Shown: positions 40,621-58,009 of the stretch, piece by piece
How the letters are laid out: each line of letters begins with the position of its first letter
Position numbering within the stretch: the first letter of the stretch is position 1
Assembly: GCF_009909235.1 (NCBI RefSeq)
Contig: NZ_JAAAPO010000001.1
Location: 434,001-498,000 of the forward strand
Reading direction: 5' to 3'
Length of the DNA: 64,000 nt
Source: Novosphingobium ovatum
GTDB lineage: Bacteria; Pseudomonadota; Alphaproteobacteria; Sphingomonadales; Sphingomonadaceae
Translations under genes and position numbers: made by a program
Notes under the pieces: model-generated
Told to the model about the DNA's origin: nothing
Databases searched by the model: none
The model's input: the letters and a program-made list of their open reading frames with translations, nothing else

Positions 40621-42795
40621 ATGATGAAGACTGTACTGGCCTGCACCACGGCGCTGGCCATGGTGCCGATGATGGCCCACACCGCCTACGCCGCCGAGGC
40701 GGCTCCCGCCCAGGCACAGGCAAATGCCGACGCGCCGATCATCGTCACGGCCGAACGCCGCGCGCTCAATGTGCAGGACATGCCCGTCTCGATCGTCGCA
40801 ATGAATGCCGAAATGCTGCGCGACCGGGGCGTGGGCGATTTGAACGACCTGCAATCGCAGGTGCCTTCGCTGTCCTTTGTCGACAATGGCAATTCCAAAT
40901 TCCTGAACATCCGCGGCGTTGGCCTGACCGAGGCCGCCCCCAACCAGTCGGTGGCCGTCGCGGTGCATCTGGATGGCGCCTATATCGCGCGCGAATTCAC
41001 CTTTAACGATGCGTTTTTCGATGTCGAAACGGTCGAGGTGCTGCGCGGGCCGCAGGGCACCTATTCGGGGCAGAACGCTTCGGGCGGGGCGATCTTCATC
41101 AACTCGGCCAAACCCAGCCTGACGCGCACCAATGGTTTTGCCGAGGTGACGCTGGGCAATTACGCGCGCAAGCAGTTCAGCGGCGCGGTCAGCACGCCAC
41201 TGACCGACACGCTGGCCGTGCGCGTGTCGCTTCAGGCCGAGGCACGCGACAGTTTCTACACCAACCGTGGCCCTACCGGCTCGGCTGGCGCGGTGGTGTC
41301 CTCGCAGCCGGGCAACCTCAACCGCTTTCTGGGGCGGGTGCAATTGCTGTGGAAGCCGGTCGACAGTCTGGAACTGCGCCTGATCCATCAGTACAGCAAT
41401 GTCGATTCAGACGGCATCCCCCGCAACGCCTATACCGCGGCCAATCTGGCGCGGCCCTATGTGCTGAACTATGACACCACCGACACGTTGCAGCGCGTGC
41501 GCTATCACCGCACCACCGGCGCGATGCGCTGGGATGTGTTCAGCGGCGCGCGGTTGAACGTCAACGCGTCCTATCAGGAAACCCGCAACGATCAGCGCAT
41601 CGACAGCGACCGCACCAGCACGCTGGTCGATCCCACCGTGCGGCAGGAATATTCGCAATTTGACATCCGCGACCGCTATTTCACCGGCGAAGTCAACCTG
41701 ATGTCATCGGGCAGCGGGCCGTTTGAATGGACGGTGGGTGCCACCACGCTGGACTATCGCCAAAAGGCCTATCTTTATACGCCCAAGGGCACGCAGATCG
41801 CGGCGGGCAACGGCACCTATATGTATCTGGACGCCTTCCGCCAGAACACCGCGCTGTTTGCCGAAGTGGGCTACCAGTTTGGCCGCGTGCAGGTGAAGGC
41901 GGGCGCCCGTTACAACCACGAGGTCAACGGTTTCTACACCGATTCCTATCGTACCACCGGGATCTATGGCGCGCCGTCCTCGTATTTTACCCCGCCTTAT
42001 CAGCGGTTCAAGAATGTGACGGGCCGCGTGTTGGTCAATTGGAAGCCTTCGGATGACCATCTGATCTATGGCACCGTCAGCCGGGGGTACAAGCCGGGCG
42101 GGATCACGCCGACCGGCGACAATTACGATTCCGAAACCGTCACCAATTTCGAACTGGGCTGGAAGGGTGAGTTTCTGGACCGCAAGGTGACGACCTCGGT
42201 CTCGGCGTTTTACATGAAGTATGACGGGTTCCAGGCCTCGATCGCCACCGATCCCGACAACCCCACCACGCGCGACACCAAGAACATCAACAACACCGAA
42301 ATCAAGGGTGTCGAGGCGCAGCTTGCAGCCCATATCAATGGGTTGCATGCCGATGTCAGCTTTTCGGTGCTGGATGCCAAATTTGGCAATCTGACCATTT
42401 TCCTGCCGGTGGGCGCCTATGGCAACACCACCACCCTGCCGGTGAATGTGGGCGGGCGTCAGGTGAACTATGCGCCCAAGTTCAGCGCTGCGGCCGGGCT
42501 TGGCTATGACATTGCCATGCCCGGCGGCACGCTGACCCCCAGCGTCCGCGTCTCGCACACCGCCAGCCAGTGGTCCTCGTTCTTCCAGCTGCCGTACCAC
42601 CGGATGGACGCGCGCACGCTGGTTGACCTGCGCCTGACGTACAAGGCCGAGCGCAACTGGAAGCTGCAGGCCTATGTCACCAACCTGTTCGACAAGACCT
42701 ATATCGCCGTGTCCTCGACCGCGACCGATGGCATCGGGGCCTATGGCCTTGGCTCGCCGCGCCAGTTCGGGGCGGCGCTGTCGTACACGTTCTAA
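40621..42795 (+). CDS. TonB-dependent outer-membrane receptor
   Basis: The 724-aa protein has a signal peptide (ending AYAAE) and a TonB-box-like APIIVTAERR. A plug domain follows (MPVSIVAMNAEML...LRGPQGTYSGQNASGGAIFI, cited in part), then a 22-strand-type beta barrel ending in the aromatic C terminus LSYTF. Features GNYARKQFSGA, SRGYKPGG and NLFDKTYIA are typical of sphingomonad receptors for non-siderophore substrates. It is divergent from kdgD-gudD, so it probably imports the substrate of the aldarate block across the outer membrane. The substrate is inferred from context only. Confidence 0.9.
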   Translation: MMKTVLACTTALAMVPMMAHTAYAAEAAPAQAQANADAPIIVTAERRALNVQDMPVSIVAMNAEMLRDRGVGDLNDLQSQVPSLSFVDNGNSKFLNIRGVGLTEAAPNQSVAVAVHLDGAYIAREFTFNDAFFDVETVEVLRGPQGTYSGQNASGGAIFINSAKPSLTRTNGFAEVTLGNYARKQFSGAVSTPLTDTLAVRVSLQAEARDSFYTNRGPTGSAGAVVSSQPGNLNRFLGRVQLLWKPVDSLELRLIHQYSNVDSDGIPRNAYTAANLARPYVLNYDTTDTLQRVRYHRTTGAMRWDVFSGARLNVNASYQETRNDQRIDSDRTSTLVDPTVRQEYSQFDIRDRYFTGEVNLMSSGSGPFEWTVGATTLDYRQKAYLYTPKGTQIAAGNGTYMYLDAFRQNTALFAEVGYQFGRVQVKAGARYNHEVNGFYTDSYRTTGIYGAPSSYFTPPYQRFKNVTGRVLVNWKPSDDHLIYGTVSRGYKPGGITPTGDNYDSETVTNFELGWKGEFLDRKVTTSVSAFYMKYDGFQASIATDPDNPTTRDTKNINNTEIKGVEAQLAAHINGLHADVSFSVLDAKFGNLTIFLPVGAYGNTTTLPVNVGGRQVNYAPKFSAAAGLGYDIAMPGGTLTPSVRVSHTASQWSSFFQLPYHRMDARTLVDLRLTYKAERNWKLQAYVTNLFDKTYIAVSSTATDGIGAYGLGSPRQFGAALSYTF

Positions 42796-42873: not shown

Positions 42874-43455
42874 CTAGTCGGTCCACAGCTTGGCCCGGTC
42901 GCTGCTGCCCACGGCCGGGCACAGCGGTTTGGGCAATTGTACCGAAACCATGAACGAGCCTTCCGGGCCGCTTTTCGAAATGTGGCCCTTGCCGGTGCAA
43001 TCCTCGGCATAGGCGATGTCGCCATGGACCAGATCATGGGTCGTGCCATCGGCCAGACCGATGATCATCCGCCCCAGAATCGGGATCAGCAGCGTGGGCT
43101 GATTGGCGACGTGAAAATCAAAGCCGCTGTTGGGGGCCGATCCGCCGATGCTGACCCGTTCGGCCTTGCGGCGCAGGAACATGGCGATTTCGCCCGACAG
43201 AGGGGCGTTGGTGGGCAATTGTTCGGCGCGGGTCAGGCCGTCCGGGCCGGTATACAGGTGAAAGACACGGCGGAACCACGGCATCTGCCCCGACCCGCGA
43301 AAGTCCAGAGGCACAGGTGGCGGCGGTGCGCCGGTGGTAGCGCCAGTGGTGGCGGCAAGGGCGGGCGCGGCCGCGCCCAGCGCCAGCATCGCGGCCAGCG
43401 AAGCCCCCAGATCGCCCAAGGCATCGCGCCGGGTCGTCTCTTGCGGCTGTGTCAT
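42874..43455 (-). CDS. Exported cupin-domain protein paired with an MFS transporter
   Basis: The 193-aa product starts MTQPQETTRRDALG followed by a hydrophobic stretch to APALAA, compatible with Tat export. Its C-terminal half is a single-domain cupin with FDFHVANQPTLLIPILG and GLADGTTHDL, then DCTGKGHISKS. The same block (D-[FW]-H ... LLI..L.G ... GL.DG..H.L ... G.GH.S.S) forms the C-terminal domain of the fused transporter at 49241-51223. The start overlaps the MFS stop by 4 bp (ATGA), so the two are translationally coupled. The ligand is unknown; a periplasmic sugar-acid or aromatic-acid binding role is a guess. Confidence 0.75.
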   Translation of the reverse strand: MTQPQETTRRDALGDLGASLAAMLALGAAAPALAATTGATTGAPPPPVPLDFRGSGQMPWFRRVFHLYTGPDGLTRAEQLPTNAPLSGEIAMFLRRKAERVSIGGSAPNSGFDFHVANQPTLLIPILGRMIIGLADGTTHDLVHGDIAYAEDCTGKGHISKSGPEGSFMVSVQLPKPLCPAVGSSDRAKLWTD

Positions 43456-44933
43456 GTGATGTCTCCCGATTTTGCTGTTGTTGCGCGCGCCGCGCGGGCC
43501 GCGCGCTGGGCCAGACGGCGCTCGATGATGGCGTGGCGGCGGCGGTCCAGCGGAAAGTTCCAGATGATCAACCCGCCCCCCACTTTCAGCACGGCGGGCA
43601 GGGCGGCCACCGTGAACAATATGCCAAACGCCGCCCATCCGGTGTTCACCGCGCCAGCCTTTGCGTCATAGCCAAAGGCATGCAGCAGCAGGAAACCCAT
43701 CCCCGCGCCCAATGCCGTGGCGATCTTGGTCGTCAGCATATAGAATGCGTAATAGCCGCCAGTGCGCTGTTCATGGGTCTTGAGCCGGCCATAATCCACC
43801 ACATCGGCCAATATCGCGGGCGAGAGCACCAGAATGGCACTGGCCCCCATGCCGATAAAGCTGACAATCACCGCGCTGACCCCGATGATCAGCGATTTGG
43901 GCATGGCCACCGGGTCCAGAAACCAATAGCCTTGCGTTGCCAGCGAGACGATCACCACCGAGACGACATAGGCTCGATGCTTGCCCATGCGGGTGGCGGC
44001 CCATGACCACATCGGCGTGGTGCCCGTCATGACGATGGCAAACAGCGTCATCAGCCACGGATAATACGGCCCCAGCCGCATATAGCCGTCATAGAACATG
44101 AACATCAGTTGCAGCACGCCCAGACTCATGCCGCCCAGACTGAACGCCGCCAGATACAGCCACAGCGGCCGGTTGTGCCGGGTGGACGCGACAAAGCGCC
44201 AGAACGGCATGCGTTGGGGCGGCAGGGGGCGGCCTTGGGGCGCGCGGGCCAGACATAGCGCGGTGGTCGCCGGGATCACCACCAGCGCGACGATGAAGAA
44301 ATAGCCCAGCACCGGGATGGAATAGGCCGATGTCGCCACCAATCCGCCCCACGCCAGCACGATCGGCAGCGCGTCATTGGCCAGATTGCCGACTTGGTTG
44401 ATCAGCCCGCGCATGCCGGTGATGCGCGACCGGCTGTCATAGTCGCTGGCCAGTTCGGCGCCCCAGGCGGTATAGCTGATGTCGGTCAGCGTATAGGCAA
44501 AGTCATAAAGCACTTTCCAGCCAACTAGATAGGCCAGCCCCACCACCGGCGGCGGGCGCAGCAGAAAGAACGCGGCCACCAGCATCAGTGCCGCGCCCAC
44601 CGCGATCCATGGCTTGCGCGCGCCCCAGCGGGTGCGGGTGTGATCCGACATCCAGCCAATCAGCTGATCGGTAAAGGCATTGACGATCCGCAGCGCCACC
44701 AGCGCCGTGCCCAATGCCGCCAGACTGATGCCAAATTCCTTGGCATAAAGCTGGGGCACATAAAGCGTCATCGGGCTTTGCAGCAGGCCGGGGCCGAACG
44801 CGGCCAGACCATAGGTCAGCAGATCCCCGCGCGAGAGGGCGGTAGGCGGGGCGGGAGGATCGGCCGGATCGATTACCGGCACTTCGACGGGGGGCGACAG
44901 GTCGCCTTCATCAATCGACAGACGCGCGGACAT
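43452..44933 (-). CDS. GPH-family MFS transporter (MelB-like)
   Basis: The 493-aa protein has ~12 spans. It carries the glycoside-pentoside-hexuronide signature NAFTDQLIGWMSDHTRTRWGARKPWI, cited in part, after helix 2. The inner loop has ELASDYDSRSRITGMRG. GPH carriers move sugars or glycosides with Na+ or H+. It is followed by an overlapping gene for an exported cupin, mirroring the domain order of the fused protein at 49241-51223. It lies 89 bp downstream of the LacI-type regulator on the same strand. Confidence 0.85.
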   Translation of the reverse strand: MSARLSIDEGDLSPPVEVPVIDPADPPAPPTALSRGDLLTYGLAAFGPGLLQSPMTLYVPQLYAKEFGISLAALGTALVALRIVNAFTDQLIGWMSDHTRTRWGARKPWIAVGAALMLVAAFFLLRPPPVVGLAYLVGWKVLYDFAYTLTDISYTAWGAELASDYDSRSRITGMRGLINQVGNLANDALPIVLAWGGLVATSAYSIPVLGYFFIVALVVIPATTALCLARAPQGRPLPPQRMPFWRFVASTRHNRPLWLYLAAFSLGGMSLGVLQLMFMFYDGYMRLGPYYPWLMTLFAIVMTGTTPMWSWAATRMGKHRAYVVSVVIVSLATQGYWFLDPVAMPKSLIIGVSAVIVSFIGMGASAILVLSPAILADVVDYGRLKTHEQRTGGYYAFYMLTTKIATALGAGMGFLLLHAFGYDAKAGAVNTGWAAFGILFTVAALPAVLKVGGGLIIWNFPLDRRRHAIIERRLAQRAARAARATTAKSGDIT

Positions 44934-45022: not shown

Positions 45023-46144
45023 TTATTCTGGCAGTGGAGGCGTTTGCGCGGCTTGGGCAGCCGGAAAGGTCAGGCCCTTGGTCGTCTCGCGCTCGATCAC
45101 GTCACAGGCCAGCCAGATGCGCGGCGCGGGGCCACCGGGGGCGGGGCCCAACCGCGCCGCCATCGTCGCCACCGCCGTTTGCACCATCGACAACAGCGGC
45201 AGATGCACCGAGCTGGTGGTGTGCGACAGCCAGCGCGATTGCGACGTGTCGCCAAAGCCGACAACCGACACATCCTGTGGCACGCGCAGGCCATAGGTTT
45301 GCCGCGCCGCATCCACCACGCCGATCGCCAGATAGTCGCTGGCAGCAAACACCGCGTCGGGCGGAGGGCCATCCCCCCCCTTCCCATTGCCCGAAAACAG
45401 CCGTTGCGCCGCGCTAACCCCGTTTTCATAGGTCCAGCCGGTATCGACCCAGCGCGTGGGCGCACAGCCGGCCGCCTCCATCGCGGCGGCAAAGGCCTGA
45501 AGCTCGGTCAGGCGGTGGGGGTTGGCGGCGATGCAGGCGGGGCGGCTGCGCCCCTCGGCCAGCATCAGCCGCGCCACCTGACGGCCCACATCCGGCCCAT
45601 CGATCCACACCAGCGCCGCGCCATCCACCGCGTCCTGACGGTCCAGCACCACCAGCGAGATGTCGGCCGCGCGGACCTTTTTGCGCACACTGGCCCCCGG
45701 CACGGCGGAAAGCACCAGCATGCCGTCGATGTCCTGCTCGATCAGTTCCTCGACCACGCTGTCCAGCATCGCGTGATCGCTGACGATGCGCCAGACGATC
45801 TGGAACCCGCGCAGGGTCAGCTCGTCCTCGATCATGGAATACATGTGGCAGAAATAGGGGCTGTAGAGATTGGCCATCACCACGGCTGCGCGGCGGGTGG
45901 GGAGGCCGTTGATGTCCTCGACCCGTTTGCCATGGCGATAGCCCAGCGCGGCGGCGGCGGCCAGCACCCGCGCGCGGGTGTCGGGCGCAACGCTGGCCCC
46001 GGGCGTGAAGGTGCGCGACACCGCCGAGCGCGAGACCTGTGCCATGCGCGCCACGTCATTGGCGTTCACCTTTCGGCTGCCAGATGGGCGGCTGCTGCTG
46101 GCGCGTTTGGGGGCAGAGGCGGGATCGGGCGGGCGACGGGTCAT
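45023..46144 (-). CDS. LacI-family transcriptional regulator
   Basis: The 373-aa protein has a LacI helix-turn-helix placed after a ~25-residue basic tail. Residues VNANDVARMAQVSRSAVSRTF are read in part as NDVARMAQVSRSAVSR. The hinge ARVLAAAAALGYR and a periplasmic-binding-protein-like effector domain follow (LVVLDRQ...VVGFGDTSQSRW). It lies within the minus-strand run that starts at the fused transporter. A LacI-type core (AAGCGCTT) occurs upstream of the dehydratase at 28941, with weaker versions near 40484 and 53565, which may be its targets. This is inference. Confidence 0.88.
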   Translation of the reverse strand: MTRRPPDPASAPKRASSSRPSGSRKVNANDVARMAQVSRSAVSRTFTPGASVAPDTRARVLAAAAALGYRHGKRVEDINGLPTRRAAVVMANLYSPYFCHMYSMIEDELTLRGFQIVWRIVSDHAMLDSVVEELIEQDIDGMLVLSAVPGASVRKKVRAADISLVVLDRQDAVDGAALVWIDGPDVGRQVARLMLAEGRSRPACIAANPHRLTELQAFAAAMEAAGCAPTRWVDTGWTYENGVSAAQRLFSGNGKGGDGPPPDAVFAASDYLAIGVVDAARQTYGLRVPQDVSVVGFGDTSQSRWLSHTTSSVHLPLLSMVQTAVATMAARLGPAPGGPAPRIWLACDVIERETTKGLTFPAAQAAQTPPLPE

Positions 46145-46258: not shown

Positions 46259-47203
46259 TCAGGCCCCCTCGACAAAAGCCTTGAGGATGGGGGCGGTTGC
46301 TTCTGGATTGTCCTGAATGACAAAGGCGCCCGAATTGGGCACCACCTCGGTTCGGGCATCGCGCAGCGCCGCCTCGGCAAAGGGGCGGAAGCGGGGATAG
46401 GCCTTGTCGAACTGGCCATAGACCAGCAGCGTTGGGCATTCCACCCGGCGCAGCGCGGCACGCAGATCGGTGACGCCCACGCCCCGTTCGCTGGGTTGCA
46501 GCCACAGGCCGGCGGCGCGGCGGCTGGCGATGCCTTCGGGGTTGATCGCATCGGGGTGGACCATGCCGAATGTGTTGACCAGCAATTCGGGCGGCGTGGG
46601 CAGCGGCATGCCCTGCGCGTCAAAGATCGGCTTGAGCTTCTCCTCGACCGCCGCGCGCACCTCGGCCAGCGTCTTGCGCCCGCCCAGCGCGCTGGAGATC
46701 ACCGCCAGACGCCGCACCCGGTCGGGATGTTGCGCCGCCATCACCACGCCCACGCACCCGCCCAGCGAGGTGCCCAGGAGGTCGATCTTGGCAAGCGCCA
46801 TCTCGTCCAGCGCGCCGACCAGCATCGCCGCCGTTTCGGCCAGTGTGTGGATATAGGGCGGCGCGCCATCCATCCGCGACCCGCCATGGCCGGGCAGGTC
46901 AAACGCGATCACCCGCCGCCCATCGGCCAGCGCCGGGGCGACATGCCGCCAGTCCGACAGCCACCCGCCCAGCTTGTGCAGCACCACCACCGGCGGGCGC
47001 GACGTGTCCGTGCCCAGCGTGGCGTAATGCAGCACGCCGCCGCCGCGCCGGATCTGGCCAAAGCCGCTCCACGGGCCGGCGGGCGGCGTGGGCAGGGCAA
47101 CGGGCGGCACAGGCGTGGCGGGGCGGGGGCGGGCGATGGCGGGCCCGGCCGCCAAGGCGCCGATCATGCCCAGCCCCTTGGCCAGATCGCGGCGGTTGAT
47201 CAT
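46259..47203 (-). CDS. Tat-exported alpha/beta hydrolase lacking the usual catalytic His
   Basis: The 314-aa product begins MINRRDLAKGLGMIGALAAGPAIA, a Tat-type signal (cited here for the RR motif). Its alpha/beta hydrolase fold has VVVLHKLGG (oxyanion region), FDLPGHGGS, the elbow LLGTSLGGCVG and an acid in VYGQFDKAYP. Where homologues carry a catalytic His (typically ...GHF...), this protein reads VPNSGAFVIQDNPE, with Ala in place. It may be inactive, use another residue, or have a binding role. It lies in the run fused transporter - SsuD-like - PhyH - hydrolase - LacI. Confidence 0.75.
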   Translation of the reverse strand: MINRRDLAKGLGMIGALAAGPAIARPRPATPVPPVALPTPPAGPWSGFGQIRRGGGVLHYATLGTDTSRPPVVVLHKLGGWLSDWRHVAPALADGRRVIAFDLPGHGGSRMDGAPPYIHTLAETAAMLVGALDEMALAKIDLLGTSLGGCVGVVMAAQHPDRVRRLAVISSALGGRKTLAEVRAAVEEKLKPIFDAQGMPLPTPPELLVNTFGMVHPDAINPEGIASRRAAGLWLQPSERGVGVTDLRAALRRVECPTLLVYGQFDKAYPRFRPFAEAALRDARTEVVPNSGAFVIQDNPEATAPILKAFVEGA

Positions 47204-47248: not shown

Positions 47249-48082
47249 TTATGCGGCCAGAGCCGTCCCTTCGCGGCGCCAAAGGATCGGCAGCGTGTCC
47301 TCGCCCCCGCTCACCAGCTCGCCCTCGGGCATGGTCTCGATGCCGGGGATGGCGGCCTTGTAGGGAGCGTTGTGCCAGCGCACATCATGGCCAAACAGGC
47401 GCACCGCCAGCCCCGTGCGCGCCAGCGTTTCGCTGTCATTGCCCTTGGAAAAATGGGGCGTGTGCGGGTGGAAGATCACCGCGTCCCCAGGCTCCATGTC
47501 AAAGCTGACAAAGCGGAAGGGGAAGTCGGGATTGTCGCGCTGCTCCTGGAAATTGGGGCACAGGCCATCGGCCTGATCGGGGCGAAAGCCAAAGGTCAGC
47601 CCTTTGTCGACGCAATGGCGGTGCCAGCCCGCGACATATTCGATCCGCCCGTTTTCGGCATTCACCGGGGTAAAGGCGGTCCAGATGTTGGGGGCCATCT
47701 CGCCGCGCACGGGCCATGCGGTCTCGTCGCAATGCCACGGCATGATCGAGGGGCTGCGCGGCGGTTTGGAGAACAGGTGATCGTGATACATGCGGATATA
47801 GTCCGCGCCGATCACCCGGCCGGTGGCCTCTGCAATCGGGCTGTCCTGCACATAGGCGCGGAAATCGGGGTCTTTGCGCCACATATAGCAGACCGACAGC
47901 ATCGCCCCGTTGGACGGGCCCAGCAGGCCATATTGCCCCGGATCAGCCGCGACGCGGGCGATGGCGGCCTGCATGCGGGTGATCCATTCGGCATCGATCA
48001 AGCCTTTGATCAGCACCACGCCGTCGCGGGCATAGGTGTCGATGTGCTCCTGGGTAATGGGGGAAAGCGGATGGCGGTTCAT
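47249..48082 (-). CDS. PhyH-type Fe(II)/2-oxoglutarate dioxygenase
   Basis: The 277-aa protein belongs to the phytanoyl-CoA dioxygenase family, which hydroxylates diverse small molecules using 2-oxoglutarate and O2. The iron-binding HxD is PWHCDET (residues ~125-131). The distal His is in DAVIFHPHTPHFSKGN, and a conserved Arg follows in TGLAVRLFG. The start MNRHPLSPITQ is preceded by GAGGACTTCCC. It follows the SsuD-like gene by 21 bp, so an oxidative pathway with two oxygenases is likely. The substrate is not evident. Confidence 0.82.
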   Translation of the reverse strand: MNRHPLSPITQEHIDTYARDGVVLIKGLIDAEWITRMQAAIARVAADPGQYGLLGPSNGAMLSVCYMWRKDPDFRAYVQDSPIAEATGRVIGADYIRMYHDHLFSKPPRSPSIMPWHCDETAWPVRGEMAPNIWTAFTPVNAENGRIEYVAGWHRHCVDKGLTFGFRPDQADGLCPNFQEQRDNPDFPFRFVSFDMEPGDAVIFHPHTPHFSKGNDSETLARTGLAVRLFGHDVRWHNAPYKAAIPGIETMPEGELVSGGEDTLPILWRREGTALAA

Positions 48083-48103
48083 GGGAAGTCCTCTCGTCAA
48101 TCG

Positions 48104-49219
48104 TCAGGCGGGGATCGCGGCGGTTTGGGCCGCATCATGCGCATCAGCAGCGGCGCGCAGCAGCGGGAACAACTGTTCGCCATATTCGGGGATGTCGGTG
48201 TCGGGGCGGAAACCGCGGATCAGAAAGCGCGTCACGCCCATGCGGTAATAGTCCATCAGCGCCTCGGTCACTTGGGCCGGGGTGCCGACGAAACAGGCCT
48301 GATTGCCATATTTGCCCTGCGCGGCTTCGGTCACGCCCATCCACAGGCAGCGGTCATGGCGGGTGGCGGCGCGGGCGGTGGCCAACACATGGTCGCCCGC
48401 ATGGGTGCTGTCGGCAAAGTTGGACGGGCCCTGTTGCGGCGCGGCCGATTGGCGCGCCATCATCGCGTGGAAATCGGCCAGCACGGCGTCCGCACGGGCC
48501 CATGCCTCGTCCTCGGTCTGGCCCAGGATCACCAGACAGGTCATCATGAAGCCGACCTGACGCCCATGCCCATCGGCAGCAGCGGTAACGCGGTCCATAT
48601 GGGCGCGGATATGGGCGATGCTGTCGCCGCTCATGGCGAACAGGTCGGCCGTTTGGGCGCAGGCGTCGATCGATTCAGGCGAGGTCCCCGCCCATGACAC
48701 CTCCAGCGCGCCGCCCACCGGCTTGATCGGGGCAAAGGCCTGAGCGTGGCGGTAAAAGGCGCCGTCATGGTCCACCGGCGCATCGGCGGTCCAGATCCGG
48801 CGCATGATCTGCACATATTCCAGCGCGCGGGCATAGCGCTGCGGCTTGGTGGTGAAATCGCCGTCCGCCTCCAGCTCCTTGTCGCTGGGCCCCGCGATGA
48901 TGTGCACGCTCATCCGCCCTGCCGAGAGCTGGTGCACCGTGGCCAGCATCCGCGCCGCCATCGTGGGCGCGATAAAGCCGGGGCGGTGCGCCAGCAGCAC
49001 TCGCAGGCGCGTGGTGTTGGCCAGCACATGGGTGGCGATGGTGTGGCTATCGGGCATGAGTGACGCGTTGGCGATCAGCACCCGGTCATAGCCTGCCGCT
49101 TCCTGCGCCTGTGCCGAGGCGGTGATCGCCGCAACGTCAAACTGGTCCTGGGGCGCGGGGTGCAAGGGGGTCCCCCGGTTGTGGGTGACAAGTCCCGAAA
49201 TCTCGACAGGCATAGGCAT
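48104..49219 (-). CDS. SsuD-like LLM-class flavin-dependent monooxygenase
   Basis: The 371-aa product is a bacterial luciferase-like protein of the alkanesulfonate-monooxygenase group. Features are DSHTIATHVLANTTRLRVLLAHRPGFIAPTMAARM (cited in part), QLSAGRMSVHIIAGP, PQRYARALEYVQIMRRIW and the SWAGTSPESIDACAQTADLF segment. Such enzymes use FMNH2 from a separate reductase to cleave C-S, C-N or other bonds. No reductase gene is in the window. It lies 21 bp downstream of the fused MFS-cupin gene and 21 bp upstream of the PhyH gene. Confidence 0.85.
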   Translation of the reverse strand: MPMPVEISGLVTHNRGTPLHPAPQDQFDVAAITASAQAQEAAGYDRVLIANASLMPDSHTIATHVLANTTRLRVLLAHRPGFIAPTMAARMLATVHQLSAGRMSVHIIAGPSDKELEADGDFTTKPQRYARALEYVQIMRRIWTADAPVDHDGAFYRHAQAFAPIKPVGGALEVSWAGTSPESIDACAQTADLFAMSGDSIAHIRAHMDRVTAAADGHGRQVGFMMTCLVILGQTEDEAWARADAVLADFHAMMARQSAAPQQGPSNFADSTHAGDHVLATARAATRHDRCLWMGVTEAAQGKYGNQACFVGTPAQVTEALMDYYRMGVTRFLIRGFRPDTDIPEYGEQLFPLLRAAADAHDAAQTAAIPA

Positions 49220-49240: not shown

Positions 49241-51223
49241 TTATGGCTTGGGGACGGGTTGGGGGTTGTGCTGGATGCTCAGGCTGTTGGCCACGCATTG
49301 CTCGGGCGCGACGCCGTCCGGGCAGGACGAGGCGCGGCTGCGCAGCGGGTCTTCGCGCGGGAGGCGCACCGTCATCGCCATCACCGGCACGCTGCCGACC
49401 GAGCGGCTGGTGTGGCCCTGACCCACCGTGTCATTGGCCAGCACGATCGTGCCAGGTTGCAGGCGGTGGACGGACCCATCGCCCAGTCCCACCTCCAGCG
49501 TGCCGGACAGCACGATCAACAGGCGCGGGCTGGACACGCGGTGCCAGTCGATGAAGGTGCCGGGGGGCGAGACGCCGATCTCGGTGTCGGTGGTATAGAG
49601 CCGCGCGTTGATCGCCAGCGGGTCTGATCCGGGCGCGCGGGGCAGGGTGACCGTGTCCAGATAGGATTTGCCATCCACCCCGGCCGAAATGCGCGGGATC
49701 GTCACCCCATTGGCCGGAACGGGCGTTGCCGGCGCGCTGATCGCCGGGGGCGGCGATGGAGGCGCGCCCGGCCGCGCGGCATCGGCCCGCGCCGGAGAGG
49801 ACGAGAGCGCCAGCGTCATCACCATCGCCACCGCGCCCGCCACCATCGCGGTGGGCAGGGCGGTGTTCAGCGCGGCGTCCTGATCGACCACGGCGGGGGG
49901 CTGTGGGATGCCTGCCGTTTCGGCTTGCCCTTGGGCTGGCGCGCGCAGGAACAGGCAGGCCAGCACCGCCGCCACGGCGGGCAGCACCGAGAGCGAGAGC
50001 ACGATGCCATTGACCACACCGGCCGATTGCACGCTGCCCGCATCATGCGCCGAGACAAAGCCGACCGCCGACAGGATCGCGCTGAACACCCAAGTGCCAA
50101 AGGCCGCCGTGCCCTTTTCCACCATGACGAACACGCCCGCCAACACGCCCTCGGCGCTGGCGGGGCCGTGGTGGCGGGCATGGTCCATTGTGTCGGTCAG
50201 CACCGTGTACAGGCCAAAGAACAGCCCGCCCACGCACAGCCCCTCGACCCCGCCCAGCACCAGCGCCCACGGCATCGGGTGCCCGGCCGGGACCAGATAC
50301 CACGCACACATAGCGGCCGCTTCGGCCAGCGCGGCCAGCATCAAGGCCTGCCGCCGTCCGATCCGCCCGGCGATCCGCACCCATCCGGCCTGACTGGCCA
50401 TCATCCCCAGCGTTTGCAGCAGAAAGATCGAGCCAAGGCTTTTGTCCGCGGCATGCAGCACGTGGCGCGTATAGAATGGCAGCGCCGCGCCATGCAGCGT
50501 CAGTCCGGCAAACATCGTCACCTTGAACGCGATCAGCGCGCGAAACGGGCGGTTGGCGGCAATCGCGGCAGCGGCTTGGCGAAAGGTGATGTGCGGGGTG
50601 GTGGCCGCGTGGCCCTCGCTGGTGGCGTCAATCAGCAGAAAGGTGGCGATCCCGCCCAGCGCGACCAGCCCCGCCAGCACCATCGCCAGCAGCCCATGCG
50701 CCGCCCGGTCTCCTCCCATCAGCGAGAGCATCCATGGCGCGGCCGCCGTTGCCGCCAGCCCGCCAAACGAGGAGCCATAGACGCTGAACGTCATCAGCCG
50801 CGAGCGTTCGTGGAAATCCTGGGTGATCGCCCGGCCAATCGCCAGATAGGGGATGCGATAGAGCGTATAGGCAGTGGAGAAGATCAGCAGTGAGGCACCG
50901 CTCCATACCAGCAGGCCAGTGTATGACAGCCCCGTTGGCACGTTGAACAGCATCACCAGTGAAACCGCCGCCAACAGCGCGCCGCCCACCAGATAGGGCC
51001 GGTGGCGGCCCCAACGGGTGCGGGTGCGATCGGCCAGCACACCCACTACCGGGTCGATCGCCGCGTCATAGATCTTGGACGCGACCACCAGCAGCCCGGC
51101 CATGCCCATCGCCAGCCCCAGCGAATCGGTCATGAACCGCAGGTGGAGCAGGCCAACCGCCCCCACCAGCGCCGCCGAGGTAAAGGAGCCCACGCCCCAT
51201 CCGATCAAGGCCTTGCGCTTCAT
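49241..51223 (-). CDS. GPH-type MFS transporter fused to a C-terminal cupin domain
   Basis: The 660-aa protein combines two modules. Residues ~1-440 are a GPH-family transporter, with DAAIDPVVGVLADRTRTRWGRHRPY after helix 2 (cited in part). After a short soluble linker, a further hydrophobic segment at ~458-474 ends in an AxA-like ARADA. A Pro-rich linker and a cupin at ~555-622 follow (DWHRVSSPRLLIVLSG, GLGDGSVHRL, GQGHTSRS). With 12 MFS spans, the extra span would place the cupin in the periplasm. The cupin matches the separate exported cupin at 42874. ATG 51223 is chosen; upstream codons are not transporter-like. The open frame is continuous, with no frameshift sign. Confidence 0.85.
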   Translation of the reverse strand: MKRKALIGWGVGSFTSAALVGAVGLLHLRFMTDSLGLAMGMAGLLVVASKIYDAAIDPVVGVLADRTRTRWGRHRPYLVGGALLAAVSLVMLFNVPTGLSYTGLLVWSGASLLIFSTAYTLYRIPYLAIGRAITQDFHERSRLMTFSVYGSSFGGLAATAAAPWMLSLMGGDRAAHGLLAMVLAGLVALGGIATFLLIDATSEGHAATTPHITFRQAAAAIAANRPFRALIAFKVTMFAGLTLHGAALPFYTRHVLHAADKSLGSIFLLQTLGMMASQAGWVRIAGRIGRRQALMLAALAEAAAMCAWYLVPAGHPMPWALVLGGVEGLCVGGLFFGLYTVLTDTMDHARHHGPASAEGVLAGVFVMVEKGTAAFGTWVFSAILSAVGFVSAHDAGSVQSAGVVNGIVLSLSVLPAVAAVLACLFLRAPAQGQAETAGIPQPPAVVDQDAALNTALPTAMVAGAVAMVMTLALSSSPARADAARPGAPPSPPPAISAPATPVPANGVTIPRISAGVDGKSYLDTVTLPRAPGSDPLAINARLYTTDTEIGVSPPGTFIDWHRVSSPRLLIVLSGTLEVGLGDGSVHRLQPGTIVLANDTVGQGHTSRSVGSVPVMAMTVRLPREDPLRSRASSCPDGVAPEQCVANSLSIQHNPQPVPKP

Positions 51224-52229: not shown

Positions 52230-53548
52230 GCGGGGGCTTTCATCCGGGATATGGAACGGGCGGCGATCAGCGCGGCGATCAGGCATCCGCCCAGCGCCAG
52301 CGCGGCAACGGTGGCGATCGACTGGCCGGTGGCGGCAGGGCCTGAAAACACCCGCGCCGTCAGCCCGGCCACCGCCAGCGGTCCCAGCGAACCGCCGATC
52401 ATCGTCATGACAAAGGCGTAAAACGCCACCGCCAGCCCGCGTGATTGGGCGGGTACGATCTCGCTGATGACGGACAGCATGGTGGTGCCGTAAAGCGCGC
52501 TGGCACCCATCACTTGGGCCGCCAGCACCATCGCGCCCAGCGGCCCCGGCATGGCATAGGCCAGCGCCGAGGGCAGCGTTGCCAGCGCGACGATGCCCGC
52601 CAGCGTGACCTTGCCCGCCGTGCCGTAACGGGCCGCGACGCGGTCGACGATCAGCGCCGCCAACCCCGCGCCGATCAGCGCCCAAGCGATCTGGAACAGG
52701 CCCAGCTCTTTACCCACGGCGGTGGCGGCGATGCCCATCTGACGGGTCAGCATGGCAGCGCTCCACCCCGTGATCGCCGCCGCGCCCAGCGCGAACAGCG
52801 CGGCCGACAGATACAGCGGCACCAGCACTCCGGCACGCGCGGCCAGCGCGGGCCAGATCGGCCCGGTCGGAGCGGCCTGCGCCTTGAGCGTGGCGCTGCG
52901 GCTGCCATCGCCCACCAGCCACAACAGCAGCGCCACCGGCAGGCCGCAGGCCCCCAGCACGACAAAGGCCACGCGCCACGCCGCCAGCCCGTCCACCACC
53001 GGCCACCCGGCAAAAAAGCCCGCCGGAACCGCCTGAAGGATCATCCCGCACAGCGTCGATCCCACGCCATAGGCCACCATGCTGCCCAGCACATAAAGCG
53101 CCATCGGGCGGCCGCGCCGTTCGGGCAGGAACATTTCGGCGATGATGCCAACCGCGCATGGGCCCAGCACCGCCTCGCCCACGCCGATGAACAGGCGGCC
53201 GACAAACATGTCGCCAAACCCGCGCGACAGGCCGCAACCGATGGTGGCCGCGCTCCACACCACGATGCCCGCGGCCAGCAACATGCGGCGGTTCACCCGA
53301 TCGGCCAGATGGCCCAGCGGCAGGCCAACGCTGACGTAAAACACGGCAAAGGCAAAGCCTTGCAGGACGGCGATCTGGACATCGCCAATTCCCAGATCAG
53401 CTCGCACCGGATCGATGACCAGCGCCAATATGCCGCGATCCACATAGGCCACCACTTGCGCCAGGCACAGCACGGCGACCGCCGCCCATGCTCGTGCCAC
53501 CGGTATCCGCGCTGGGGCTGGCGCGGGTATCTGTGCAATATTCTGCAT
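52226..53548 (-). CDS. MFS transporter
   Basis: The 440-aa protein has ~12 spans and MFS motifs: VAYVDRGILALVIDPVRADLG in helix 1 (cited in part) and the loop LGHLADRVNRRMLLA. GEAVLGPCAVGIIAEMFLPERRGRPMA follows in helices 4-5. It resembles the spinster/ACS-like carriers frequent in sphingomonad catabolic loci, importing organic acids or aromatic compounds. ATG at 53548 is preceded by GGGGAGAAAGAC. It is the first gene of a two-gene unit with the overlapping hydrolase gene and is divergent from the monooxygenase operon. Confidence 0.82.
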   Translation of the reverse strand: MQNIAQIPAPAPARIPVARAWAAVAVLCLAQVVAYVDRGILALVIDPVRADLGIGDVQIAVLQGFAFAVFYVSVGLPLGHLADRVNRRMLLAAGIVVWSAATIGCGLSRGFGDMFVGRLFIGVGEAVLGPCAVGIIAEMFLPERRGRPMALYVLGSMVAYGVGSTLCGMILQAVPAGFFAGWPVVDGLAAWRVAFVVLGACGLPVALLLWLVGDGSRSATLKAQAAPTGPIWPALAARAGVLVPLYLSAALFALGAAAITGWSAAMLTRQMGIAATAVGKELGLFQIAWALIGAGLAALIVDRVAARYGTAGKVTLAGIVALATLPSALAYAMPGPLGAMVLAAQVMGASALYGTTMLSVISEIVPAQSRGLAVAFYAFVMTMIGGSLGPLAVAGLTARVFSGPAATGQSIATVAALALGGCLIAALIAARSISRMKAPA

Positions 53549-53706
53549 GTCTTTCTCCCCGTTGGAGCGCTTGCCAAACGGTGTTGTTGGTGCTTTCCTT
53601 CGGCGGGAATGCGGGGCGGGGGAACGGGAATGCCATCGGTTTCCGCCTGGCGAACATTTTGCATTGGTGTCTGCAAATTTGTGCAATGCCTTGGCAAAAA
53701 GTGTGC
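53549..53706. promoter_or_regulatory. Divergent promoter region with symmetric AT-rich sites
   Basis: Between the MFS gene (minus) and the monooxygenase gene (plus) lie a LacI-like core GAGCGCTT (53565-53572, in TTGGAGCGCTTGCCAA) and the inverted pair GCATTG/CAATGC (53661-53666 and 53684-53689). The near-palindrome TGCAAATTTGTGCA (53672-53685) lies inside the latter. The TGCAAA...TGTGCA pattern recalls the element at 51329-51364, suggesting a common regulator. Confidence 0.45.
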
Positions 53707-55065
53707 ATGAAACTTCTTGCCTTCCTGATGCAGACCGGCGGCCACATGGCCGGATGGCGCCACCCCGATGCGGCTCCTGCTGCGCTGACTGACATCGCCT
53801 ATTTCCAGCATTGTGCGGCTGTGGCCGAACGTGGGCTGTTTGATGGCGTGTTCATCGCCGATTCGGTGGGCTATCCCCCGGCGCGGGGCGACGATGTGTT
53901 CGCCTGTCTGGAAACGCCAAAGCTGGACCCGGCGGTGATCATCGCGGCGCTCTCGGCCACCACGCGGCATCTCGGCTTTGTGGGCACAGCCTCGACATCC
54001 TATTCGCAACCCTTTGAACTGGCGCGCCGTTTCGCCAGTTTGGACCATGTTACCGGTGGCCGCATTGGCTGGAACATCGTGGCCTCGACCATGGAGAACG
54101 AGGCGCATAATTTCGGGCTGGCCAGCCATTACGACCACACCGAACGCTATGCGCGGGCGGGCGAATTTGTGGATGTGGCGAAACGGCTGTGGGACAGCTG
54201 GGAAGATGGGGCGATGCTGGCTGACAAGGCGGCGGGGCGTTACACCGATCCGGCGCGTATCCATGGCGTGGGCTATCAGGGCGTGCATTTCCAGGTGGCT
54301 GGGCCTCTGAACGTGCCGCGCGGGCCGCAGGGGCATCCGGTGCTGGTGCAGGCCGGGGCGTCCGATGTGGGCAAACGCTTTGCCGCCGCCCATGCCGAGG
54401 TGATCTTTACCTCGCATTCCTCGATGGCAACGGCGCAGGCCTTCCGGGCCGAGATGCACGAGCTGTTGCGCGAGGCCGGGCGCAGCGCCGACAGTTGCAA
54501 GATCATGTGCGCCATCACCCCGATCATCGGCGCCTCGGCCGCCGAGGCGCAGGCCACGCGCACCGCGCTGGACGCGGCGATCCCGCTGCCGGTGGCGATG
54601 GGTAAGCTGGAGGGGTTGCTGGGCAATGTCGACCTGTCGGGGCATGACCCCGATGGCCCGCTGCCTGATGTGCCCGAAAGCGGCATGTCGAAATCCACCT
54701 GGGAGCAGGTGGTGGGTCTGGCCCGGCGCGAGGGGCTGACCATCCGCCAATTGGCCGCGCAAGTGGCCGGTGGCCGCACCAGCCGCACCGTGACCGGCAC
54801 CGCCGCCGATGTCGCGGACGAATTGGAGGCGTGGTACACCAGCGGGGCGGCAGACGGCTTTGTCATTGCCGCGCCTTATCTGCCTGCCGGGCTGGAGCTG
54901 TTTGTCGATGGCGTGGTGCCATTGTTGCAGCAACGCGGCCTGTTCCGCACCGAATATGCGCCCGGAACGTTGCGTGACCGGCTGGGATTGGCGCGGCCAG
55001 ACAATGGCTATGCCAGCGGGGCCTATGCGCCCGTGCGTCCCGAATTCATCGGCAATGGAGCCTGA
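53707..55065 (+). CDS. NtaA/SnaA/DszA-type flavin monooxygenase (first of two)
   Basis: The 452-aa luciferase-like protein belongs to the nitrilotriacetate monooxygenase group. It has LMQTGGHMAGWRHPDA at the N terminus, SQPFELARRFASLDHVTGGRIGWNIVAS and NFGLASHYDHTERYARAGEFVDV (both cited in part). PQGHPVLVQAGAS and EVIFTSHSS complete the family features. These enzymes oxidise C-N or C-S containing compounds with FMNH2 from a partner reductase. It opens a five-gene operon whose last gene encodes a second member. The deacylase-like gene follows after 3 bp. ATG at 53707 is chosen because the family N terminus begins there. Confidence 0.85.
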   Translation: MKLLAFLMQTGGHMAGWRHPDAAPAALTDIAYFQHCAAVAERGLFDGVFIADSVGYPPARGDDVFACLETPKLDPAVIIAALSATTRHLGFVGTASTSYSQPFELARRFASLDHVTGGRIGWNIVASTMENEAHNFGLASHYDHTERYARAGEFVDVAKRLWDSWEDGAMLADKAAGRYTDPARIHGVGYQGVHFQVAGPLNVPRGPQGHPVLVQAGASDVGKRFAAAHAEVIFTSHSSMATAQAFRAEMHELLREAGRSADSCKIMCAITPIIGASAAEAQATRTALDAAIPLPVAMGKLEGLLGNVDLSGHDPDGPLPDVPESGMSKSTWEQVVGLARREGLTIRQLAAQVAGGRTSRTVTGTAADVADELEAWYTSGAADGFVIAAPYLPAGLELFVDGVVPLLQQRGLFRTEYAPGTLRDRLGLARPDNGYASGAYAPVRPEFIGNGA

Positions 55066-55068
55066 GTG

Positions 55069-56814
55069 ATGAGCGCCTATGACCTGATCATTCGTGGCGG
55101 GACGATTGCCGATGGCACCGGCGGCGAATTGCGTGAGGCGGATATCGCCGTGCAGGATGGCCGCATCGCCGCCGTGGGCGAGATCCCGGCCAAGGGCGTC
55201 GAGGAAATCGACGCGCGCCACATGCTGGTCACTCCCGGCTTTGTCGATCTGCACACGCATTATGATGCGCAGGTGACGTGGGACAGCCATTTCAGCCCAT
55301 CGACCAACCATGGCGTCACCACCGTATTGCTGGGCAATTGCGGCGTGGGTTTTGCGCCCTGCAAGCCTGACATGCGCGAGGAAATGATCAATGTCATGGA
55401 GGGTGTCGAGGACATCCCCGGCATCGTCATGGCCGAAGGCTTGCCGTGGAACTGGACGACATTTCCCGATTATCTGGACGCATTGGCACAGCGGCATATG
55501 GATGCCGATTTTGCCGTGGCGGTGCCGCATATCCCGGTGCGCGTGTGGGTGATGGGCCAGCGCGCCATCGACCGTGAGCCCGCCACCACCCGCGACATGG
55601 CCCGCATGGCCGCCATTGTCGCCGAGGGTATGGCGGCAGGGGCCTTTGGCTTTTCCACGACGCGGGTGATCGGCCATCGCACGGCGGGGGGGCAGCAATT
55701 GCCCGTCACCACCGCCAGCGAGGACGAGTTGATGCATATCGCTTTGGCCATGAAGCCCTATGGCAAAGCGCTGTTCATGTCGGCGTCGGAATTTGACACG
55801 ACCCATGGCTTTTCGGGCGAGTTCAACCTGTTGCAGCGCGTGGCGCAGGCGTCTGGCCACACCGTCACCTTTCCGTTGTTGCAATATAACGAAGCGCCCG
55901 ACCGCTGGCACCAGATCGCCGAATATGCCCGTGCCGCCCGCGCAGGCGGCGCCGACATGCTGGGGCAGGTGGTGGGCCGCCCAGTGGGCGTGCTGATGGG
56001 GCTGCAACTGACGCTGCACCCGTTCCGTGGCTGCCCCAGCTATGACGCGATTGACGCCCTGCCTTTGCCACAGCGCGTGGCGGCGATGCGCCAGCCCGAC
56101 ACCCGCGCGGCGATCCTGCGCGAATATGGCCCGGATGGTAAGGGGACCAGGCTGGACCCGGCGAAATACCCCGCCTTCATGCGGTTCATCCACCTGTGTT
56201 ACCCGATGGGGGCCGACCCCGACTATTCCCCGCCCGAAAGCCGCCGTCTGGACAATCTGGCCGCCGCGCGCGGGGTGACGCTGCCCGAACTGGCCTATGA
56301 CCTGTTGCTGGAGGAGGAGGGGCAGGCGATCCTCTATTTCCCGGCGCGCAATTTCACCGCCTATAATCTGGACGTGGTGCATCAGATGCTGACGCGCGAC
56401 GACACGGTGCTGGGGCTGGGCGATGGCGGTGCGCATTGCGGGGCGATCTGCGATGGGTCGATGCAGACCTATATGCTGTCGTACTGGACGCGCGACCGGG
56501 TGGGCGACCGGCTGTCGATCCCGCAAGCGGTCGAGATGATGACCCGCCACACCGCCCGCGTCATGGGCCTGAACGACCGGGGCGTGATCGCGCCGGGGAT
56601 GAAGGCCGATTTCAACATCATCGATTATGACCGGTTGGCGCTGCGCAGCCCACGCGCCAGTTTCGATCTGCCCGCTGGTGGCCGCCGCTTGACACAGGAT
56701 GCGGTGGGCTATGCCGCGACCATCGTGTCGGGTGTGGCGACGCACCGCAATGACGCGCCCACCGGTAATCTGCCCGGCCGCCTGCTGCGCCGCGCCGTTC
56801 CCCATAACGCCTGA
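55069..56814 (+). CDS. N-acyl-D-amino-acid deacylase-like amidohydrolase
   Basis: The 581-aa protein is an amidohydrolase-3/D-aminoacylase family member. Metal-site features are FVDLHTHYDAQVTWD (HxH), the GNCGVGFAPC loop and LGLGDGGAHCGAICD (Asp) near the C terminus. GVIAPGMKADFNIIDY is the closing family motif. Members deacylate N-acyl-D-amino acids or open cyclic amides. The start ATG (55069) is 3 bp after the monooxygenase stop; GTG at 55066 is a weaker alternative. Position between two flavin monooxygenases suggests cleavage of an amide product formed by oxidation. The substrate is unknown. Confidence 0.82.
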   Translation: MSAYDLIIRGGTIADGTGGELREADIAVQDGRIAAVGEIPAKGVEEIDARHMLVTPGFVDLHTHYDAQVTWDSHFSPSTNHGVTTVLLGNCGVGFAPCKPDMREEMINVMEGVEDIPGIVMAEGLPWNWTTFPDYLDALAQRHMDADFAVAVPHIPVRVWVMGQRAIDREPATTRDMARMAAIVAEGMAAGAFGFSTTRVIGHRTAGGQQLPVTTASEDELMHIALAMKPYGKALFMSASEFDTTHGFSGEFNLLQRVAQASGHTVTFPLLQYNEAPDRWHQIAEYARAARAGGADMLGQVVGRPVGVLMGLQLTLHPFRGCPSYDAIDALPLPQRVAAMRQPDTRAAILREYGPDGKGTRLDPAKYPAFMRFIHLCYPMGADPDYSPPESRRLDNLAAARGVTLPELAYDLLLEEEGQAILYFPARNFTAYNLDVVHQMLTRDDTVLGLGDGGAHCGAICDGSMQTYMLSYWTRDRVGDRLSIPQAVEMMTRHTARVMGLNDRGVIAPGMKADFNIIDYDRLALRSPRASFDLPAGGRRLTQDAVGYAATIVSGVATHRNDAPTGNLPGRLLRRAVPHNA

Positions 56815-56825
56815 AAGACCGATTG

Positions 56826-58004
56826 ATGCTTCTGAACCGCCCCCGCGCTGATGAATTGATGGACCGAGATGGCATTGACGCCATCGTCGCCTCGACCCCG
56901 ATCAACACCTATTACCTGTCCAGCTGGGCGACCGATGCCAGTTGGGGCTTTGGCGATCTGGCGCTGGCGCTGTTGCCGCGCGACCACGCCAAGGAAGCCG
57001 CCGTTCTGACGGTTGAGGTCGACACCGGCCAGCCCCAGCAGCGCGGCGGCACATGGATGCGCATCGTGCGCGGCTATGCCCGCAAGCCCGGCATTGGCGC
57101 GGGCGGGGTGCAGGGGGTGATGACATCCGAAGGCCTGCCGCAGAACCACCCCGAGGCGGTGGCCGACTACCTGCGCGAGATCGGCTTGGCCAAGGGCGCG
57201 CGCATCGCCTTCGAGGATCGCGGGTTGGGGCTGGACGTGGCCGAAATGCTGGGCGGGGCCATCGAGGCGGTGGGGGCGCGCGATTTCCTGCGCGACATCC
57301 GCATGGTCAAAACGCCCGAAGAAATGGGCCATATGCGCGCCGCCGCACGCAAGACCGAGCTGGCCCTGCAAATCAGCGCCGAGGCGATTGCCGCGGGCGC
57401 CACCTGCGCCGAGGCAGAACGGGTGTTCTGGTCGGCCACCGCGTTGACGGGCGGGCGGCCGGTGTTCCTGCTGATCACCCCCTATCGCCCCGGCTTTGGC
57501 CGTCTGGACAAGGGGGCGGCGTTGCAGGAGGGCGACACGATCACCTTTGACGCCACCACCGAATATGCCCATTATACCAGCGACATTGGCCGCACCGCTG
57601 TCATCGGCTGGCCCAATGCCGATCAGTTGCGCGTCTTCAACGCCACCCGTCTGGGCTGGCGCGCGGCATTGCCGCATTTCCGCCCCGGCCGCCTGTCGAC
57701 CGACGTGGAAAAGGCCGTGACCGCCTGCATCCAGGCCGCCGGCAACCCCGAGTTCAAGGGCTGTGGCCTGCATTCGGTGGGGCTGGAGCACACCGACCAC
57801 CCGCACCCCAACGGCGGCATGCATACGTTCGAGCTGGTCGATGGCATGGTGATTTCCTGCGACCTGCCATGGATTGGCCCGGCGGTGGGCAAGTTCCATT
57901 TCGAGGACATCATCTACCTCAACAACGGCGAGGTCGAGATTTTGAACAATCCCGATGGCCGTTTGCTGGCCTGTGTCGATGGCCGTGCCGTCCCCGTGGA
58001 GTAA
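56826..58004 (+). CDS. M24-family metalloenzyme (Xaa-Pro peptidase / creatinase-like)
   Basis: The 392-aa protein has the creatinase N-domain (IVASTPINTYYLSSW) and the pita-bread catalytic domain. Metal-site positions are FDATTEYAHYTSDIGRT (two Asp), HSVGLEHTDHPHP (His), MVISCDLPW, where Asp takes the place of the usual Glu, and HFEDIIYL (Glu). The fold covers aminopeptidase P, creatinase and ectoine hydrolase, so a C-N hydrolase on a small molecule is as likely as a dipeptidase here. ATG at 56826 is 11 bp after the deacylase gene; TTG at 56823 precedes it. Confidence 0.78.
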   Translation: MLLNRPRADELMDRDGIDAIVASTPINTYYLSSWATDASWGFGDLALALLPRDHAKEAAVLTVEVDTGQPQQRGGTWMRIVRGYARKPGIGAGGVQGVMTSEGLPQNHPEAVADYLREIGLAKGARIAFEDRGLGLDVAEMLGGAIEAVGARDFLRDIRMVKTPEEMGHMRAAARKTELALQISAEAIAAGATCAEAERVFWSATALTGGRPVFLLITPYRPGFGRLDKGAALQEGDTITFDATTEYAHYTSDIGRTAVIGWPNADQLRVFNATRLGWRAALPHFRPGRLSTDVEKAVTACIQAAGNPEFKGCGLHSVGLEHTDHPHPNGGMHTFELVDGMVISCDLPWIGPAVGKFHFEDIIYLNNGEVEILNNPDGRLLACVDGRAVPVE

Positions 58005-58009
58005 CCCCA

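Follow-up and report, generated by a model that had tools for sequence, protein, structure and literature searches.

An in-frame MFS_2 transporter-cupin fusion in Novosphingobium and the gene locus of its unfused relatives

The fused gene and its neighbours in the window

The window, that is, the whole stretch of 64,000 nucleotides of Novosphingobium ovatum DNA that was analysed, carries on its minus strand (51223..49241) a single open frame of 660 amino acids; its product has 12 transporter helices, then one helix more, and ends, past a linker, in a cupin-like barrel. The parts of this gene and the genes lying beyond it on the same strand are as follows.

49943..51223, minus strand: MFS_2 (GPH-like) transporter part, residues 1-427, with 12 predicted long helices (Pfam MFS_2, 8.2e-68; phmmer match to MelB, 4.6e-27; AlphaFold2 helices)
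49805..49879, minus strand: 13th hydrophobic helix, residues 449-473, with a signal-peptide-like core (AlphaFold2 helix of low pLDDT; best 19-residue hydropathy 1.95)
49784..49792, minus strand: A-R-A at residues 478-480, directly before D481, a candidate site for signal peptidase I judged from sequence (PARA followed by D or Q in 4/4 fused proteins)
49244..49714, minus strand: cupin part (cupF), residues 504-660, in which cysteines 634 and 643 are conserved (50% identical to cupF of Sphingobium boeckii, where it is a separate gene; AlphaFold2 strands)
48104..49219, minus strand: LLM-class flavin monooxygenase (LLM1), constant neighbour of cupF (Pfam Bac_luciferase, 7.8e-53; adjoins cupF in 15/15 genomes)
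47249..48100, minus strand: PhyH-family (phytanoyl-CoA dioxygenase-like) oxygenase (Pfam PhyH, 3.1e-26; same locus in relatives)
46259..47203, minus strand: alpha/beta hydrolase ABH1, common to the other three fused loci (Pfam Abhydrolase_1)
45023..46144, minus strand: LacI-type regulator, common to the other three fused loci (Pfam LacI and Peripla_BP_3)
43452..44933, minus strand: second MFS_2 transporter (GPH2), with a 4-bp overlap with cupS (Pfam MFS_2, 9.4e-69)
42874..43455, minus strand: separate cupin (cupS) with a twin-arginine-like start, TRRDALG...ALA (signal called by eye)

The original prediction had read the 660-residue frame as a 12-span GPH transporter joined through an extra hydrophobic segment and a linker to a cupin, an architecture that is confirmed by the open frame, Pfam, and AlphaFold2. 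The MFS_2 profile (PF13347) matches the fused protein at 229.3 bits against a cut-off of 27, with residues 10-426 aligned to positions 3-420 of the 427 in the profile, and homology to MelB (4m64) extends over residues 7-421 (phmmer, 4.6e-27). Against the NCBIfam model for GPH cation symporters (TIGR00792), however, the transporter part scores 200.4 bits, below the cut-off of 231.35. The part is called MFS_2, GPH-like, here. In the cupin, residues 553-619 score 21.5 against Cupin_2 (PF07883), under the gathering cut-off of 27.2 bits. Modelled as a whole with AlphaFold2 (mean pLDDT 66, pTM 0.60), the fused protein comprises 12 long helices and one short helix within residues 2-427, a further helix at 449-473, and strands at 507-620; pLDDT is low at the junction, where the hydrophobic helix (in the forties) is followed by a long Ala/Pro-rich linker (31-46). 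The cupin domain modelled alone forms a barrel, i.e., the double-stranded beta-helix of the cupin fold, with a mean pLDDT of 76 and a pTM of 0.67.

An unfused transporter-cupin pair had also been reported about 6 kb further along the same strand, with a 4-bp overlap. This pair, GPH2 and cupS, lies approximately 4.3 kb beyond the fused gene (6.3 kb from start to start), and the ATGA at 43452-43455 is common to both of its genes. The two cupins of the window are 37% identical over 94 amino acids (E 3e-15) and share, as claimed, the series D-x-H, LLI, GL.DG..H.L, and G.GH.S in that order; no Pfam family was found for cupS at 0.001. What did not survive is the standing of GPH2 as the usual partner of cupS: among 119 genomes of the genus, GPH2 has matches at E up to 1e-80 only in its own genome and in G552 (N. 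resinovorum), and no cupin lies beside the latter copy in the 20 kb read. An ancestral GPH2-cupS pairing was rejected on these grounds. In S. boeckii, an extra gene for a different MFS_2-type transporter, situated between PhyH and cupS, likewise overlaps cupS by 4 bp (locus L028:15439-17399); since this transporter is only 27% identical to GPH2, the two overlaps probably have separate origins.

Several further gene groups were observed in the window and beyond it. At 37975-42795, beside cupS, a TonB-receptor-like gene lies on the plus strand, and a dihydrodipicolinate-synthase-family gene, followed by an enolase-superfamily-like gene (the enolase name assigned by eye), lies on the minus strand. 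At 53488-60699, the opposite (plus) strand carries LLM2, amidohydrolase-like, M24-like, MFS, and LLM3 genes (some of them named by eye), several of which N. sediminicola and SG751A likewise have close to their fused loci. LLM genes resembling the NtaA/DmoA-type LLM2 of the window occur at L067:3268-5126 and L077:2563-4523, where their ends are overlapped by small cupin genes, that of L067 with no signal seen. Another contig of the same genome (C2, L026:4495-18760) holds a paralogous cassette of a small cupin, two TonB receptors, an MFS_2 transporter, an LLM1-like gene, and DUF1838, with MFS, kinase-like, and hydrolase genes on the opposite strand; a theme of transporter, LLM, and cupin recurs in this way within one genome.

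Fused and unfused loci among relatives

The in-frame fusion is present in four related Novosphingobium soil bacteria, namely the organism of the window, SG707, N. sediminicola, and SG751A (the others at approximately 75% identity), and all four fused frames are free of stops. A whole-protein search of the 119 genus genomes recovered the same fused frame in two further genomes, G636 and G591, those of N. sediminicola and SG751A, and the SG707 fusion was added by a contig scan with two short peptide patterns (60 stretches from 11 relatives), the counts of which are lower bounds. A sequencing error that joined two genes, named in the original prediction as a refuting condition, or a chance frame is ruled out, because three other genomes carry the fusion in frame. 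An internal translation start yielding a separate cupin is unlikely, because the start codons that might serve at the junction lack a Shine-Dalgarno-like stretch in all but one of the four genomes (in SG707, GAGG alone precedes one of them) and the resulting signal would have no basic n-region.

Both trees group the four fused proteins as a single clade (100/99 for the transporter, 100/100 for the cupin), and one origin is therefore the simplest reading of these sequences. The transporter tree leaves out L003, L004, L005, L006, L007, GPH2, and L063 (a near-copy of ST904) and adds G527, and the cupin tree leaves out profundi (start not trimmed) as well as RL4 and resinovorum (near-copies). The branch leading to the fused cupins is long (1.34 changes per column versus 0.42 for the transporter part), so the job of the fused cupin may have drifted from that of the free one. 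In pairwise comparisons between the window and the other three fusions, dN/dS is 0.23-0.26 for the transporter, 0.24-0.33 for the cupin, and 0.45-0.65 for the junction; both domains are under selection, since the ratios of the two are similar. Three of the four fused sequences are close kin, and the transporter part of the window is 79% identical to that of its nearest kin.

Eleven other genomes encode the parts separately, in one locus in 10 of them and over two contigs in AP12. These genomes are Sphingobium boeckii and Novosphingobium AAP83, profundi, guangzhouense, HII-3, ST904, RL4, resinovorum, AP12, G618, and G527, of which RL4 and ST904 are near-copies. The unfused order has two arms, one running PhyH, cupS, transporter and the other LLM1, cupF. 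LLM1 and cupF are adjacent in all 15 genomes, fused ones included; cupS adjoins the transporter ortholog in 11/11 unfused genomes and in 0/4 fused ones; and cupF follows the transporter in none of the 11 unfused genomes. The locus lies on 1.8 Mb plasmids in RL4 and resinovorum SA1, and a second locus of S. boeckii contains the transporter, cupS, and PhyH, with no cupF in the stretch read.

Within the genus, the transporter ortholog (at least 53% identity), cupF, and cupS are each found in 8 of the 119 genomes, and these are the same 8, with four further genomes holding only distant transporters (32-35%). The formal chance of two identical sets, 1/C(119,8) = 1.3e-12, overstates this co-occurrence because the genomes are related. 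Co-occurrence across genomes had been proposed as a check on the pairing, which is indeed found elsewhere, in three further fusions and 11 unfused genomes. The conserved partnership that the original prediction proposed is real, as attested by the shared set of genomes and the inherited fusion, but it comprises five genes or more of one locus and not a transporter-cupin pair, because outside the fused clade cupF adjoins LLM1, its constant neighbour, and cupS is grouped with PhyH and the transporter. When the genes of 16 stretches were clustered, no further enzyme proved common to all, and a Pfam scan of 20 neighbours from several loci found esterases, a GH3 glycosidase, polysaccharide-deacetylase-like proteins, and an isochorismatase-like protein in different loci; the neighbour lists come from a simple longest-frame caller and may include false or overlong genes.

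Searches at wider taxonomic levels scored 7-10 candidates per genome, and their counts are lower bounds. A family-level search with the fused cupin matched 8 of 298 genomes at E 1e-5; its own genome and G021 have the close form and the other six have distant cupins, and the stretches read around these distant cupins contained no transporter of this group. At the level of the order, 5 of 396 genomes matched at 1e-15: four belong to the genus, and one, G316 of another family, has a distant cupin on a 7.7-kb contig from which the other parts of the locus are absent. A class-level search with cupS found 1 of 385 genomes, its own, and a phylum-level search found 20 of 398 including its own; nine phylum-level cupin loci that were read had no second gene of the locus within approximately 1.5 kb. 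Among related single-domain cupins of other Pseudomonadota, no signal was seen in seven of the nine loci read, the start being not resolved in the other two. Of plasmid records, 5 match the whole fused protein, none covering 80% of it in one place, and 10 match the cupin. Because only distant cupins without the locus parts were found beyond these genomes, the transporter-cupin link is a feature of one small group of loci and not of the cupin family. Within the family of these short Pseudomonadota cupins, cupF and cupS seem to form a branch that is exported.

Location and chemistry of the two domains

In the N-termini of unfused cupF proteins (8 examined of 11, by eye), a basic residue precedes an early hydrophobic stretch, and all eight are Sec- or lipoprotein-like, two of them ending in a lipobox-like S-G-A-C. 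In cupS, RR or KR precedes the hydrophobic stretch in 10/10 rows (also by eye). Two cysteines near the C-terminus of cupF are invariant in 10/10 rows, which would fit a periplasmic disulfide and an oxidising compartment. Both termini of MelB are cytoplasmic (PMC8329300); with 12 helices plus one and MelB-like cytoplasmic ends, the fused cupin would lie outside, and a periplasmic location is most likely from the modelled topology. The odd number of spans postulated at first therefore has its counterpart in the 12 + 1 helices predicted by AlphaFold2, and the proposed match with an exported separate cupin extends to the export-type starts, called by eye, of the unfused relatives of the cupin.

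The junction itself can be read in two ways. In all four fusions the 13th helix is followed by PARA and then by D or Q, a junction that agrees with the hydrophobic-patch and A-x-B parts of the signal-peptide rule used in PMC3608174. The 13th helix of the window has a hydropathy of 1.95, compared with 1.06-2.61 for the 12 transporter helices. Of the four fusions, SG707 and SG751A alone have a basic residue near the 13th helix; the arginines that come closest ahead of it in the window and N. sediminicola belong to the end of helix 12. The "extra hydrophobic segment" looks like the old signal peptide of the cupin with its AxA site, and since this site is kept in all four fusions, the cupin may be cut free rather than sit at the transporter mouth. 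The original prediction had placed it at the mouth, and the predicted periplasmic side agrees with this, but the conserved site makes release possible; between release and tethering we judge the balance close to even, with a slight lean to cutting. The fused cytochrome b/c1 of Bradyrhizobium is a parallel for internal cleavage, which is not used as evidence here. A possible precedent within the genus, by analogy, is Saro_1194 of N. aromaticivorans, of which only the C-terminal part was detected, with a cut after A-V-A that follows an internal hydrophobic patch (PMC3608174). Saro_1194 is, like the fused gene, one annotated frame, and its C-terminal part appears in mature, periplasmic form after an A-x-A cut; unlike the fused gene, it involves other protein families (the C-terminal part is CHRD-like), and its authors read it as two separate proteins and not as a processed fusion (PMC3608174).

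In the transporter part, the MelB cation residues D55, D59, and T121 are kept as D53, D57, and T120, and the galactoside residues D19, D124, W128, and R149 are replaced by A17, R123, L127, and V148 (the roles of these residues are given in PMC8329300). Arg occupies the position of MelB D124 in all 11 transporter rows aligned. Because the cation residues are kept and the galactose-binding ones lost, the protein is probably a cation-coupled symporter whose substrate is not a galactoside, and the transported compound is perhaps anionic. A sulfonate was considered as the substrate, given a resemblance of LLM1 to alkanesulfonate monooxygenase below the cut-off and Arg123 of the transporter, and was dropped when nothing further supported it. 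The part resembles MelB and the MFS_2/GPH symporters in its homology over most of its length and in its cation residues, whereas it differs from MelB in the replaced galactoside residues and in matching TIGR00792 below the cut-off. MelB is not known to have a cupin.

Canonical metal-binding cupins have the first motif HxH(x)3-4E and a second motif with a His. In the first motif of cupF, D-x-H stands in place of H-x-H and there is no Glu; the second-motif His is present in 9/10 rows, the exception being the fused cupin of SG751A (L075:9869-10495), in which the otherwise conserved His of G-x-G-H is an Arg. Metal chemistry may accordingly not be essential. cupS has one His in each motif, and neither cupin has the usual HxH...E metal motif. 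The nearest solved structure is 3es1, an N. aromaticivorans protein with a cupin fold and no known function, which was found by the cupF+cupS profile (7.7e-4) and ranked first by Foldseek (1.7e-5); only 50 positions match by sequence, however, and the Foldseek superposition is poor, with an rmsd of 17.6 over 164 columns. No solved structure was found with the cupS profile alone at E up to 1. The first Foldseek rows are mostly cupins (E 1.7e-5 downwards), with modest TM-scores of 0.27-0.39 of the query among the 50 matches listed. SznF and vitamin-K carboxylase lead the VIA-align matches at Z 8-9, followed by cupins at Z up to 8, and 3es1 is absent from the best 50. The rows for SznF and vitamin-K carboxylase cover approximately 80-100 residues and were not accepted as a sign of kinship, and the many cupin matches of both programs are of unrelated function. 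Two periplasmic cupins, MncA and CucA, are known from one cyanobacterium, one exported by Tat and the other by Sec (PMC4192464). They resemble cupS, with its Tat-like start, and cupF, with its Sec- or lipoprotein-like start, in being two apparently exported cupins of one organism, although the available text of PMC4192464 mentions no transporter fusion. A metal selection of the MncA kind was set aside as analogy only.

Proposed origin of the fusion and its possible meaning

Our preferred reading, to which we give a probability of roughly 0.55, starts from the observed fusion, its conservation, the locus, and the co-occurrence: an MFS_2 cation symporter and the exported cupF, two members of an uptake-catabolism locus of Novosphingobium and Sphingobium, were fused, and the cupin would handle the substrate in the periplasm. 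The cupF gene would have become attached to the end of the transporter gene without losing the core of its signal peptide. Following the predicted topology, this core would come after the 12 transporter helices as a 13th segment and, as we infer, carry the cupin to the periplasm, where signal peptidase I would cut it free at PARA-D/Q or the linker would keep it tethered. One gene for both would hold the output of transporter and cupin at 1:1. With modest confidence, we take the cupin most likely to bind or chemically convert the compound before the symporter imports it for the LLM and PhyH oxygenases. Against this reading stand the low pLDDT of the 13th helix of the window, together with a hydrophobic stretch long enough for a membrane anchor, the missing basic residue just before the signal core in the window and N. 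sediminicola, and the free cupF gene of relatives, which adjoins LLM1 and not the transporter.

One sub-case of the preferred reading, whose odds overlap with it, takes the 13th helix as a stable anchor and the cupin as a binding or processing domain at the periplasmic mouth. We regard it as tentative. A core as hydropathic as the transporter helices, the long Ala/Pro linker of the window protein, which is of a spacer type, the lack of a basic residue directly ahead of the segment in two of the fusions, and selection on both halves all favour an anchor, whereas P-x-A-R-A before D or Q resembles the c-region of a signal peptide and is kept in every fusion, and the other three proteins have only a few residues, with no Pro linker, between this site and the barrel. 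The conservation of PARA is weak evidence either way, because three of the four sequences are close kin. A somewhat more doubtful alternative is that the fusion arose by rearrangement and stop loss and is itself functionless, its parts acting as before; its restriction to one clade, its absence from 11 of 15 genomes, and a junction that evolves faster than either domain are what such an event would leave. A rearrangement nevertheless had to be fixed, given that cupF never follows the transporter in the unfused genomes, and the fusion has persisted even as its transporter part diverged, to 79% identity between the window and its nearest kin. That the cupin is instead a cytoplasmic partner of the oxygenases, with a 13th segment that does not cross the membrane, seems very unlikely. 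The signal-less single-domain cupins of other Pseudomonadota (7/9 loci) and the small cupins beside LLM genes at L067 and L077 lend it some colour, but the export-type starts of 8 unfused cupF and 10 cupS rows (by eye), the cytoplasmic end of helix 12 expected from MelB homology, and the strong hydrophobicity of the 13th segment all speak against it.

Transporters fused to extracytoplasmic domains are known as such, and the general view is that MFS carriers need no partner protein in the periplasm. The original prediction knew of no described system of this kind, and we found no description of a transporter-cupin fusion or of this locus in the open-licence PubMed Central literature; as far as this search reaches, both the MFS_2-cupin fusion and the locus with two exported cupins are new. 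Because the fused cupin is, in relatives, a separate and apparently exported protein of the same neighbourhood, the fusion suggests that transporter and cupin work together outside the inner membrane. It is a speculative possibility, and one we would not favour at present, that the fused protein is an MFS_2 carrier with its own tethered periplasmic cupin, which captures or converts the substrate before import in an undescribed pathway with two exported cupins, an LLM, and a PhyH oxygenase; if true, it would be the MFS counterpart of the binding-protein domains fused to other transporters. The fused protein is also a test object for internal signal-peptide cleavage, and the compact locus, with a transporter, two cupins, LLM, PhyH, and often a TonB receptor nearby, lends itself to a search for the substrate. 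Thus, with one MFS_2 carrier and two apparently exported cupins, one of them welded to the carrier in a single clade, the locus offers a test case for periplasmic helpers of MFS carriers.
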